Assembly: GCA_944350315.1 (NCBI GenBank)
Contig: CALVON010000013.1
Coordinates: forward strand, 1 to 58,897
Length of the DNA stretch: 58,897 nucleotides
From: an uncultured Bacilli bacterium
GTDB lineage: Bacteria; Bacillota_I; Bacilli_A; RF39; UBA660
Direction of reading: 5' to 3'
This document shows, piece after piece, positions 14,847-19,051 of the stretch (position 1 is its first letter; every line of letters begins with the position of its first letter). The notes beneath the pieces are model-generated. The model worked only from the letters and a program-made list of their open reading frames with translations. It did no database searches and was not told where the DNA came from. The position numbers and the translations under genes were made by a program.

Positions 14847-16175
14847 ATGAGAAAAAATAAAAATATACACGATACAAAAAAATTAATAAGCGAAGAAAAA
14901 AGAAAAATCAAGATATTAAAAAAAGATTTGCGTAAGCAAAGAATCAATAAGTTTAAAGCAACTAAAGTTGGGAAGCTTCTATTTATTTTTAGTAATGAAA
15001 GAGAGGCTTATTCTTTTTCTGATTTATTTGTTGTAACACTTGTATCTTTAGTGGTTGGTGCTTTTGCTTGCTTTTCTATTTTTACTATTTTTACTGGTGG
15101 TAGAAATTATTTTAAACTTTCTCGTGATCTTGGAAAATTTTTTGATGTATATGATACTTTAACTGAAAATTATTATGGTGATGTATCTGTTGATGAACTT
15201 GTCGAAAGTGCTATTTCGGGAATGGTTTCTAGTGTTGGCGATGTTTATACTAGTTATGCTGATTCTGAATATACGGAATCTTTCAACGAATTAATTGATG
15301 GAAAATATGAAGGAATTGGTTGTACAATTCAGCAAATAGAGAAGGAAATTAAGGTGATTTCTATTTACGATGGAGGTCCAGCTGATAAGGCTGGGTTGAA
15401 GGTTAATGATATTATAAAATCTGTTGATGAATATGATGCAAATGAAATGGGGGCTACCGCATTATCCGAATATATTAAAAATGAAGCTACTAATGATATT
15501 AATATAGTGGTTTATAGAGATGGGGAAGAAATTTCTTTTAATTTGATTAGAGATGAAGTAGAAATACCAGTAGTTGAATCTAAGGTAATTAATGATAATG
15601 ATGCCAAAATTGGATATTTAAAAATTTCTATATTTTCATCTGTTTCTTCTAATCAATTTGAAAAACGATTAGAGGAATTGGAAAAAGAAAATATTGATTC
15701 TTTGATAATAGATGTGAGGGATAATAGTGGTGGCTATTTGTCTTCAGTGACTGATATTGTAAGTTATTTAATGCCTAAAGGCGATGTAATATATAAAATA
15801 CAAAAGAATGATAATATTGAAAGTGTTAAAGATAAAACTACTACAAAAAGAGAATATCCAATAGCAGTATTAGTTAATGGTAATAGTGCTTCAGCGTCAG
15901 AAATTTTAGCTGGTGCTATAAAAGATAGTTATGGAGGATTTGTAGTTGGAAATACGACATATGGTAAAGGAACTGTTCAGCAAGTTAAGAAGTTATCTGA
16001 TGGTAGTATGATAAAATATACTGTTGAAAATTGGTTAACACCAAATGGTACTTGGATAGATGGAGAAGGAATTGTACCAACTCACTTAGTAGATTTAGAT
16101 CAAGAATATTATGAAAATCCAATAGATGAAAACGATAAACAACTAAAAAAAGCAATTGAACTTGTTAGTAATTAA
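14847..16175 (+). CDS. S41-family C-terminal processing protease (CtpA/CtpB-like)
   Basis: A 442-residue protein. A lysine-rich cytoplasmic N-terminus is followed by one membrane anchor (about 62-84), a PDZ domain (about 150-240, with GDVYTSYAD and GIGCTIQQIE), and the S41 protease core: VRDNSGGYL, the catalytic Ser in NGNSASASEILAGA, and Lys in TYGKGTVQ. In Bacillus, CtpB cleaves SpoIVFA during sporulation, so a spore role is plausible beside the ger genes, but a general extracytoplasmic protease is equally possible. No SD directly precedes the ATG. An 11-codon ORF (14815-14850, MIFYLVNYMNI) begins after AGAAAGG and its TGA overlaps this ATG, suggesting translational coupling. Confidence 0.87.
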   Translation: MRKNKNIHDTKKLISEEKRKIKILKKDLRKQRINKFKATKVGKLLFIFSNEREAYSFSDLFVVTLVSLVVGAFACFSIFTIFTGGRNYFKLSRDLGKFFDVYDTLTENYYGDVSVDELVESAISGMVSSVGDVYTSYADSEYTESFNELIDGKYEGIGCTIQQIEKEIKVISIYDGGPADKAGLKVNDIIKSVDEYDANEMGATALSEYIKNEATNDINIVVYRDGEEISFNLIRDEVEIPVVESKVINDNDAKIGYLKISIFSSVSSNQFEKRLEELEKENIDSLIIDVRDNSGGYLSSVTDIVSYLMPKGDVIYKIQKNDNIESVKDKTTTKREYPIAVLVNGNSASASEILAGAIKDSYGGFVVGNTTYGKGTVQQVKKLSDGSMIKYTVENWLTPNGTWIDGEGIVPTHLVDLDQEYYENPIDENDKQLKKAIELVSN

Positions 16176-16274: not shown

Positions 16275-16997
16275 ATGTTAAACGTAATTATATATGAAGA
16301 TAATGCTGTTTTTATGCAGAAGAATATTAATAGTGTCAATAAGGCTTTAGCTAATTGTGATATTGATTATAGGATATTAAAATTTAATCAATATTCTTCA
16401 AAATTAGAAGATGCAATTTATCAAAAAGGTGTTAAGAAAATTTATATTATTGATGTAGAAATGGGCGATGTCTCTGGTCTTGAAATTGCTTCTAAAATAC
16501 GTGAAGATGATTTTGAAAGCATAATTATTTTTGCTACTGCATTTGACAAATATCATAATGATGTTTTTTATTCAAGATTAATGGTACTTGATTTCATTTG
16601 TAAGTATCAAGGATATGAAGAACGACTTAAGGATGATATAATAGCAGCACTTAAAGTTTTATATAAAAAGAAAACTTTTATATTTATGTATAATCATGTA
16701 ATATATCGTGTTCCATATAGTCATATTTGTTATATTGAAAAAGAACCATTAATTAAAAGATGTATTATACATACTTTAAATAATCGCTTTCACATAGTTA
16801 AACCAATTAACTGGTTAGAACAAGTTCTTGGTGCAAATTTTGTCAAAACTCATCAATCTTGTATTGTTAATATGGATAATGTAAAGAATATCGATTTTAG
16901 TACAAATGTTATAACTTTTAAAAATGGTGCTTCTACTAGCTTGTTAACAAATGATAAAAAGAAGGTGATACGAGAGTATGTTAAAGATAGTGAGTGA
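16275..16997 (+). CDS. agrA: AgrA-like LytTR response regulator
   Basis: A 240-residue protein with a receiver domain: YEDN acidic pocket near the start, phospho-acceptor Asp at residue 60 in IIDVEMGD, FATA switch region. A C-terminal LytTR DNA-binding domain follows (YIEKEPLIKRCIIHT, FVKTHQSCIVNMDNV). This is the AgrA/ComE layout. It would bind direct repeats upstream of agrBD and targets once phosphorylated by the neighbouring AgrC. The kinase gene starts within its last 20 bases. A strong AGGAGGAAT SD precedes ATG. The agrBD genes lie convergently downstream. Confidence 0.88.
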   Translation: MLNVIIYEDNAVFMQKNINSVNKALANCDIDYRILKFNQYSSKLEDAIYQKGVKKIYIIDVEMGDVSGLEIASKIREDDFESIIIFATAFDKYHNDVFYSRLMVLDFICKYQGYEERLKDDIIAALKVLYKKKTFIFMYNHVIYRVPYSHICYIEKEPLIKRCIIHTLNNRFHIVKPINWLEQVLGANFVKTHQSCIVNMDNVKNIDFSTNVITFKNGASTSLLTNDKKKVIREYVKDSE

Positions 16998-18249
16998 TTT
17001 TTTAGGAACATTTTTGAATGTTTTAACTTGTATTGTTTTTTCGAAAATAGTTTTAAAAGATAAAATTGTTATAAAAAAATTACAAATTTTACTATTAATA
17101 TTTTTGTTTTCTATTTTTTTACAAATTTTATGTTATTGCAATTTAATGTTTTTAAAAACTTCTATTTGTTTTTTTATGTATGCTAGCTTATTTAAAATCA
17201 GTTATTCGCTAGATAATATTAAGGTAATGATTTTGGATTTTTTTTACTTTGTTATATTAATTTTTTCTGATATATTATCAATAAAATTTTATTCTGTATT
17301 ATTAGGGGAAGATGTTTTTTATAATATTATTGCTGGAAGTATTCTAGGGAATGTCGCTGTTTTATTTCCTGTAATTATTTTATCTTTTGGATTTAGAAAC
17401 GTTATAAATAAGTTCTTAAATACTAAAGTTAAATATAAAATGATATTTGCATTATTGATTTCTTTCTGTTGTATTATTTCTTTATTTTATGAAACTTTTA
17501 AAATTGGGACTAGTTCAATAGATAAATTATTATTTATTTTTTATATAATAGTTGTTATTTTAATTTTATGTTATTGTTTTATTCAATTTTATGAGAATGA
17601 AAAACTAATAAATCAGTATGATAATTTACTTTCCTTTATAAAAAAATATGAAATTGAAATTGACAATCAAAGAATTCTAAGACATGAAAGTAAAAATCAA
17701 TTGCTAACAATTAAATCTAAAATTATAGACAAAGAAAAAGAAGATGCAATTTTAAATTATATTGATGTAATTATTAATGACAGTAGAAAGGTAAATCATT
17801 CTGAATATGCAAAATTACAATATTTGCCTTCAAACGGAATTAAAGGCTTATTTTATTTTAAAATATCTTTGGCACAAGATAAAGGCATAACAGTTGATGT
17901 CAATATTTCTAAAAACATAGAAAATAGTCTTTTGAAAAAATTAAATAGTATAGAATTTAATCAAATTGGTAAGGTTTTAGGAGTTTATTTGGACAATGCT
18001 ATTGAAGCGGCTGAAAAGGCAAATAAAAAAATGATTGGAATAGAGATATTTAAAAATAAAAATGAAATTATTTTTATAATATCAAATACATATAATTTAA
18101 ACACGAGAAAATTTGGAAGAAGTTCTAAAGGAGAAGATCGAGGTTATGGATTATTACTCGTTAACAGCATATTAAATAGTAACGTTAGATTAAGTTCAAT
18201 TACGGAAATTACTGAAGAACTATATACAAAAAAATTTATAATAAAATAA
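16978..18249 (+). CDS. agrC: AgrC-like sensor histidine kinase
   Basis: A 423-residue protein with about six N-terminal membrane helices (residues 1-200), a coiled segment, the phospho-acceptor His in LRHESKNQLLTIKSK (about residue 236), and a GHKL ATPase domain with the N-box LDNAIEAAEK and G-box GEDRGYGLLLV. This matches AgrC-type receptors (HPK10 family) that sense a cyclic peptide through the membrane domain. It overlaps agrA by 20 bp, so translation is coupled. Its ligand should be the peptide encoded at 18299-18415. Confidence 0.88.
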   Translation: MLKIVSDFLGTFLNVLTCIVFSKIVLKDKIVIKKLQILLLIFLFSIFLQILCYCNLMFLKTSICFFMYASLFKISYSLDNIKVMILDFFYFVILIFSDILSIKFYSVLLGEDVFYNIIAGSILGNVAVLFPVIILSFGFRNVINKFLNTKVKYKMIFALLISFCCIISLFYETFKIGTSSIDKLLFIFYIIVVILILCYCFIQFYENEKLINQYDNLLSFIKKYEIEIDNQRILRHESKNQLLTIKSKIIDKEKEDAILNYIDVIINDSRKVNHSEYAKLQYLPSNGIKGLFYFKISLAQDKGITVDVNISKNIENSLLKKLNSIEFNQIGKVLGVYLDNAIEAAEKANKKMIGIEIFKNKNEIIFIISNTYNLNTRKFGRSSKGEDRGYGLLLVNSILNSNVRLSSITEITEELYTKKFIIK

Positions 18250-18275
18250 AAAGCAGTATATTTTTTAAATATACA
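18246..18275 (-). terminator. Hairpin terminator of the agrBD transcript
   Basis: GTATATTT pairs with AAATATAC across a three-base loop. On the minus strand it is followed by a T-rich tract (TGCTTTTTATTTTAT). It lies in the 49 bp between the convergent agrC and agrD ends. Confidence 0.65.
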
Positions 18276-18298: not shown

Positions 18299-18415
18299 TT
18301 ATTTATTTACTAACGATTTTGGCATTTTTGCTTCATCACATATTAAAGTTGAGCATCCTTGTGTGCCAATTGTAGCAGCTAGAGAACCTAGTAATGCTAG
18401 TAAATTTGCTAACAT
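18299..18415 (-). CDS. agrD: AgrD-like cyclic autoinducer peptide precursor
   Basis: A 38-residue precursor preceded by a perfect GAAAGGAGGTTGAATT SD. It has the three AgrD parts: an amphipathic N-terminus (MLANLLALLGSLAATIG), a signal core (TQGCSTLIC), and an acidic tail DEAKMPKSLVNK that aligns with the S. aureus tail DEVEVPKEL. It lies 33 bp downstream of agrB on the same strand. By analogy AgrB would cut before Asp27-Glu28, giving a peptide ending in Cys26 with Cys21 as ring nucleophile. A six-residue ring with a C-terminal Cys is unusual; cutting after Ile25 would give the common five-residue ring. It is too short for standard gene calling. Confidence 0.85.
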   Translation of the reverse strand: MLANLLALLGSLAATIGTQGCSTLICDEAKMPKSLVNK

Positions 18416-18448
18416 AATTCAACCTCCTTTCATTCTTTTTTTCGTTGT

Positions 18449-19051
18449 CTATATATAATTGTAATTCTTATAGTTATTGTATGGTAATTTATATAATTTA
18501 TATGTTATTGGAAGAATCATTATTGTTGCTTCAATTAATCCTATTACCATAAAATTTGTTAAAACATTGTTGTTTAAATATGTAATTAAACAGATTATTA
18601 TAATGGTAGTTAAAATACTTAAAATTTTAAATTTTTTTCTTTTCTTTTTATTTATCAATGGCCTTTTTTCGGTATCTGCTGGGGCATATATTATTATTAG
18701 AATTAAACATAATATTGATAGTATTTCTTTAATTATTAAACTAATATTTAAATATATGGCTAAATATGTACCTCCAATAAATAACATTAGTGATGTTATT
18801 AGACAGGCAGTACTATTTTTAGCATGTAGTCCAAATACGAATAGTCTTATAATGTTATAAAATACAATCATTAATATAGTCTCTTTAAAAATATTTAAAA
18901 TTTTTGCTAATAATAAGATAATAATAATTTTTGTGATAGTTAAGTATATTGATTCTAATCCATATTCAATTATTTCTAGTTGTTCACTATTTAAATGCTT
19001 TTTTTTATTTTTTATATAGTTCATGGAATTTGTTAATATTTTCTTTTTCAA
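18449..19051 (-). CDS. agrB: AgrB peptidase/transporter
   Basis: A 200-residue membrane protein of the AgrB family. The catalytic residues are visible as His76 in GLHAKNS and Cys83 in TACL, almost the same positions as His77/Cys84 of S. aureus AgrB. YAPADTEKRPL matches the family's YAPxDTxxxP signature. Five or six membrane helices. The start is TTG, set by GGTGG a few bases upstream. It processes AgrD and forms the thiolactone. It is the first gene of a leftward agrBD operon whose promoter lies in the 19052-19190 gap shared with asnB. Confidence 0.92.
   Translation of the reverse strand: MKKKILTNSMNYIKNKKKHLNSEQLEIIEYGLESIYLTITKIIIILLLAKILNIFKETILMIVFYNIIRLFVFGLHAKNSTACLITSLMLFIGGTYLAIYLNISLIIKEILSILCLILIIIYAPADTEKRPLINKKKRKKFKILSILTTIIIICLITYLNNNVLTNFMVIGLIEATIMILPITYKLYKLPYNNYKNYNYI

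Follow-up and report, generated by a model that had tools for sequence, protein, structure and literature searches.

A precursor of the AgrD type that carries one cysteine at the start of its predicted ring and another directly before its acidic tail raises the question of what kind of cyclic peptide it encodes. Such a precursor is present in the window, the 58,897-nucleotide stretch of DNA from an uncultured Bacilli bacterium analysed here, whose source genome is a draft of 1.18 Mb in 46 contigs that is 95% complete. The earlier note had proposed a new type of signal, with a ring of six residues from Cys21 to Cys26 or of five that ends at Ile25, or else a disulfide in place of a thiolactone. 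On the evidence of the sequence, we consider the window to hold a complete Agr-type quorum-sensing module, and we are confident, short of certainty, that its predicted product is a six-residue thiolactone, CSTLIC, ending in Cys26 as a specificity residue with a free thiol.

Organization of the agr locus

The open reading frame at 18299-18415 on the minus strand, which translates as MLANLLALLGSLAATIGTQGCSTLICDEAKMPKSLVNK, is a real gene and far exceeds what chance would produce, because it matches the NCBIfam model TIGR04223 (quorum_AgrD) with 26.7 bits in a profile search (cut-off 19), is the sole match to that model genome-wide, even with E<=10 allowed, is preceded by AGGAGG, and begins 33 bases past the end of agrB on the same strand (Table 1). 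The score and the uniqueness of the match rule out a chance open reading frame. As in other members of the AgrD class, which have a Cys or Ser nucleophile at constant spacing ahead of an acidic tail and a gene adjoining agrB, Cys21 lies six residues before DE. The reading frame, the codons (TGC at 18355-18353 for Cys21 and TGT at 18340-18338 for Cys26) and the profile match agree in bearing out the earlier description of an AgrD precursor with these two cysteines, and its alignment of the tail with that of Staphylococcus aureus AgrD was correct.

The product of agrB has the conserved Arg and the catalytic His and Cys of this peptidase family (R60, H67 and C74, numbered from an internal ATG at 19024), which are conserved in 135, 139 and 139, respectively, of 139 relatives. 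It also matches those relatives at each of the 31 columns whose conservation among them is 80% or more. A search by sequence for a solved AgrB structure found none. On the opposite strand, genes for an AgrC sensor kinase and a LytTR regulator, AgrA, overlap by 20 bp and converge on agrD, and the hairpin between the convergent ends is possibly a terminator shared by agrC and agrD. This convergent order of agrBD and agrAC recurs in most of the family relatives read; more remote relatives, Enterococcus and Turicibacter among them, have different gene orders.

A gene for a CtpB-like S41 protease (14847-16175) adjoins agrA in the window, as it does in several relatives (L035, L036, L053 and L057), and its product may take part in peptide processing. 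The genome further encodes two membrane proteases of the Rce1/CPBP type, the Pfam family to which MroQ presumably belongs, so a candidate leader protease is available.

Upstream of agrB, 9-bp direct repeats with a 21-bp period occur in 32 of 133 regions from family loci, compared with 0-8 regions for other periods from 14 to 30. The repeat sequence varies between relatives, and the repeats are likely to be AgrA/LytTR sites. No clear direct repeat with this spacing was found before agrB in the window, where an agrBD promoter autoinduced through AgrA is therefore at most putative.

Table 1. Features of the agr locus, with positions in the window
Feature	Position	Strand	Basis
agrA, response regulator with LytTR domain	16275..16997	+	LytTR 51.4 bits, Response_reg 29.4 bits
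agrC, sensor histidine kinase	16978..18249	+	HATPase_c_5 42.4 bits; weak match to staphylococcal AgrC model
Perfect, AT-rich hairpin of 8 bp where the agrC and agrD ends converge, putative shared terminator	18256..18274	.	direct reading
agrD, 38-aa autoinducing-peptide precursor MLANLLALLGSLAATIGTQG-CSTLIC-DEAKMPKSLVNK	18299..18415	-	TIGR04223 match
Acidic/charged C-terminal recognition tail DEAKMPKSLVNK, predicted part cut off by AgrB	18302..18337	-	aligned with family tails DEP.MPKSL
Predicted macrocycle core C21-S-T-L-I-C26, six residues	18338..18355	-	register common to 148/168 family AgrDs
Shine-Dalgarno AGGAGG of agrD	18423..18428	-	direct reading; perfect; 7 bases 5' of ATG
agrB, membrane peptidase, 200 aa	18449..19051	-	PF04647 128 bits; TTG start at 19051 aligns with relatives' starts

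Ring size in the family

The relatives used for comparison belong to uncultured Bacilli that were sampled mostly from the gut or rumen of animals. AgrD was found in 100 of 291 genomes of the family, and AgrB in two of the seven genomes of the genus, several of which are incomplete. Candidate loci were collected by profile and protein searches, and the precursors were extracted from them with one HMM. Within the same GTDB family, this gave 168 distinct precursors whose acidic tail could be read; one precursor without such a tail was set aside. Class- and phylum-wide profile searches yielded few AgrDs outside the family.

A Cys followed by five residues precedes [DE]E in 148 of the 168 precursors, the spacing is one residue longer in 7 and one shorter in 2, and 11 lack the Cys; because the register is anchored on an acidic-type tail, these counts give the distance from Cys to tail and not a proven cut site. 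Within this register, the six-residue ring is the local norm in the family, as the 148 precursors with Cys and five residues before the Asp-Glu tail indicate. The tail of the window AgrD begins with DEA, while DEP is commoner among its relatives.

Rings of this size have also been described elsewhere. The autoinducing peptide (AIP) of Clostridium acetobutylicum, [CVLVTL], is a six-residue ring (PMC12312760), a synthetic peptide is active, and several clostridia are predicted to be alike (PMC10301443). By its register, Cys and five residues before the cleavage junction, the window precursor is predicted to belong to this C. acetobutylicum type. The proposal that a six-residue ring would be a new type of signal thus does not hold, since the ring is both the family norm and already known in C. 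acetobutylicum, and its uniqueness is ruled out on the same grounds. Cys26 can likewise be rejected as the ring-forming residue, because cleavage would then fall within the conserved tail.

The usual five-residue ring, CSTLI, would result if AgrB cut between Ile25 and Cys26. Most characterized AIPs have rings of five residues (PMC12312760, Table 1), and two relatives (L007 and L008) have their Cys one residue nearer the tail. In both of these, however, the acidic DEP tail still directly follows, so the cut junction seems tied to DE and not to the count from Cys. A cut before Cys26 would move off the D-E junction kept by the relatives, and the residue just before DE, here termed P1, shares the hydrophobic character of the rest of the ring in almost every precursor, which fits a place inside the signal. 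We regard the five-residue ring as unlikely.

Cysteine at the last ring position

At P1, the 168 precursors have Leu (41), Phe (41), Ile (31), Val (16), Ala (12), Trp (11), Met (8), Tyr (3), Ser (2), Cys (2) and Thr (1). The second Cys is found in another genus, in the precursor CVWFLC|DEPKAL of locus L235 (genome G133), and is repeated in L240, a wider locus of L235, where the neighbouring AgrB has the intact Arg, His and Cys. This precursor is the one true case of C-x4-C-DE that the wider AgrD collection gave beyond the window, and the AgrDs read from outside the family added no other P1 Cys. At the DNA level, a search of 385 genomes of the order for this pattern hit just the present site and one chance site (G433/L147), which lies inside a long unrelated open reading frame that reads as aldolase-like.

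In each of the two genera a single congener was read, and its P1 residue is Ala (CVIFIA in L053 and CLWGIA in L239); the Cys of the window and that of L235 apparently arose independently. Given these Ala residues, and two precursors with Ser and one with Thr at the same position, the comparison suggests that the AgrBs of both genera accept a small residue there. Among the 168 precursors, L023 and L111 alone carry an additional Cys elsewhere in the ring, away from P1, so that the extra cysteines are, as far as these precursors indicate, sporadic within a hypervariable, mostly hydrophobic ring. We therefore interpret Cys26 as a small residue that this ring tolerates, with a predicted six-residue Cys21-Cys26 thiolactone and a free thiol. 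A literature search, which was not exhaustive, did not find an AIP with a C-terminal Cys, nor one with Thr in the place of the ring Cys. On this comparison, Cys at the terminal ring position is rare and not a new class of signal; of the novelty first proposed, only the unusual C-terminal ring Cys, present in two of 168 precursors, is left standing, and the six-residue ring is not.

With a spacing of four residues, the two cysteines could in principle pair, in the precursor or in the product, giving a disulfide instead of a thiolactone. Against such pairing, the catalytic residues of AgrB are intact, the position of Cys21 is conserved as the ring nucleophile in the 148 precursors, and the sporadic second cysteines of L023 and L111 indicate that the spacing is not conserved. 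The relatives, moreover, come mostly from gut-type samples, which are presumably anoxic. We hold the disulfide to be extremely unlikely.

The rarity of Cys at P1 and the draft state of the genome could instead point to an assembly or sequencing error, or to a functionless strain-level variant. We give this explanation hardly any credence, as an apparently independent P1 Cys occurs in L235 and is seen again in its wider locus L240, beside an AgrB with intact Arg, His and Cys.

Comparison with the congener L053 bears on the variability of the ring. AgrA is about 70% identical and AgrB 70-74% between the two, and the kinase part of AgrC is 62-76% identical, compared with 28-36% for its sensor part. 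Two of six ring residues are kept between CSTLIC and CVIFIA, along with the leader end GTQG and the MPKSL of the tail. This joint divergence of ring and sensor looks like the signature of co-varying signal specificity. The staphylococcal agr specificity groups show such divergence of ring and sensor. Polymorphism of agr has been described (PMC12312760).

Proposed biosynthesis and sensing

As the genes are intact, we infer from what is known of the Agr pathway how the peptide would be cut, cyclized, exported and sensed, and what role its free thiol may have, as follows. AgrB would cleave AgrD between Cys26 and Asp27 and keep the cut peptide bound to its catalytic Cys through a thioester. The thiol of Cys21 would then attack the Cys26 carbonyl, closing the six-residue thiolactone C-S-T-L-I-C, to which residues of the GTQG region would remain attached as a short N-terminal tail. 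Export of the peptide would follow, another protease would trim its leader, and the product would be sensed by AgrC, which would signal to AgrA. Cys26, at a hypervariable position and with a free thiol, would set signal specificity and not bring in new chemistry.

A further fate may be envisaged for a tail-less peptide, as sulfur-to-nitrogen acyl shifts are known for tail-less AIPs (PMC11297923). Such a shift would place Cys26 directly next to Cys21 in a homodetic ring, where a vicinal disulfide could give a redox-switched signal. We consider this very unlikely; if true, it would add a new variant to AIP chemistry.

Variant precursors and significance

Other variants were seen among the relatives. 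Thr replaces the ring Cys in the AgrDs of some loci (L075, L096, L139, L141, L062 and L242; e.g., THIWFF|YEP and TPWLWF|DEP), and those of L075, L096, L139 and L141 adjoin an AgrB with intact Arg, His and Cys. We predict that these give threonine-lactone signals. Ser is found at the ring position in L020, L039, L044, L051, L070/L082 and L143, for which lactones like the Staphylococcus pseudintermedius signal are predicted. In L089 and L104, two AgrD genes with different rings lie close by in one locus.

With the window AgrD, the predicted signals come to include one whose terminal Cys is unusual, and six-residue rings, noted otherwise in some clostridia, appear to be in use by an entire family of uncultured Bacilli. 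The P1 data help to define the tolerance of AgrB at the cleavage position, including for small nucleophilic side chains.

Comparison with known systems

The Agr system of C. acetobutylicum resembles that of the window in its six-residue ring (Cys and five residues) and in having agrBD and agrC/agrA in separate operons (PMC10301443, PMC12312760). The last ring residue of its AIP is Leu, in contrast to Cys in the window, and its agr cluster is followed by a LanM-like gene, whereas none was noted beside the agr genes of the window. The agrBDCA system of S. aureus (AIP-I, YST[CDFIM]) shares AgrB, AgrD, AgrC and AgrA, an acidic DE followed by a Pro-containing tail, and a hypervariable ring and sensor. 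However, it has a five-residue ring, a single operon and Met, Phe or Leu as the last residue, compared with six residues, convergent operons and Cys in the window.

Closer to the window is the AgrD of L053 (genome G005), CVIFIA|DEPKMPKSL, which has the same leader end, a similar tail, the same gene order and a neighbouring S41 protease; four of its six ring positions differ, with Ala replacing Cys26. The AgrD of G133 (L235/L240) has, like that of the window, Cys, four residues and Cys directly before DE, but it belongs to a different genus, has a different leader and tail, and is accompanied by an AgrB that is 43% identical to the AgrB of the window.
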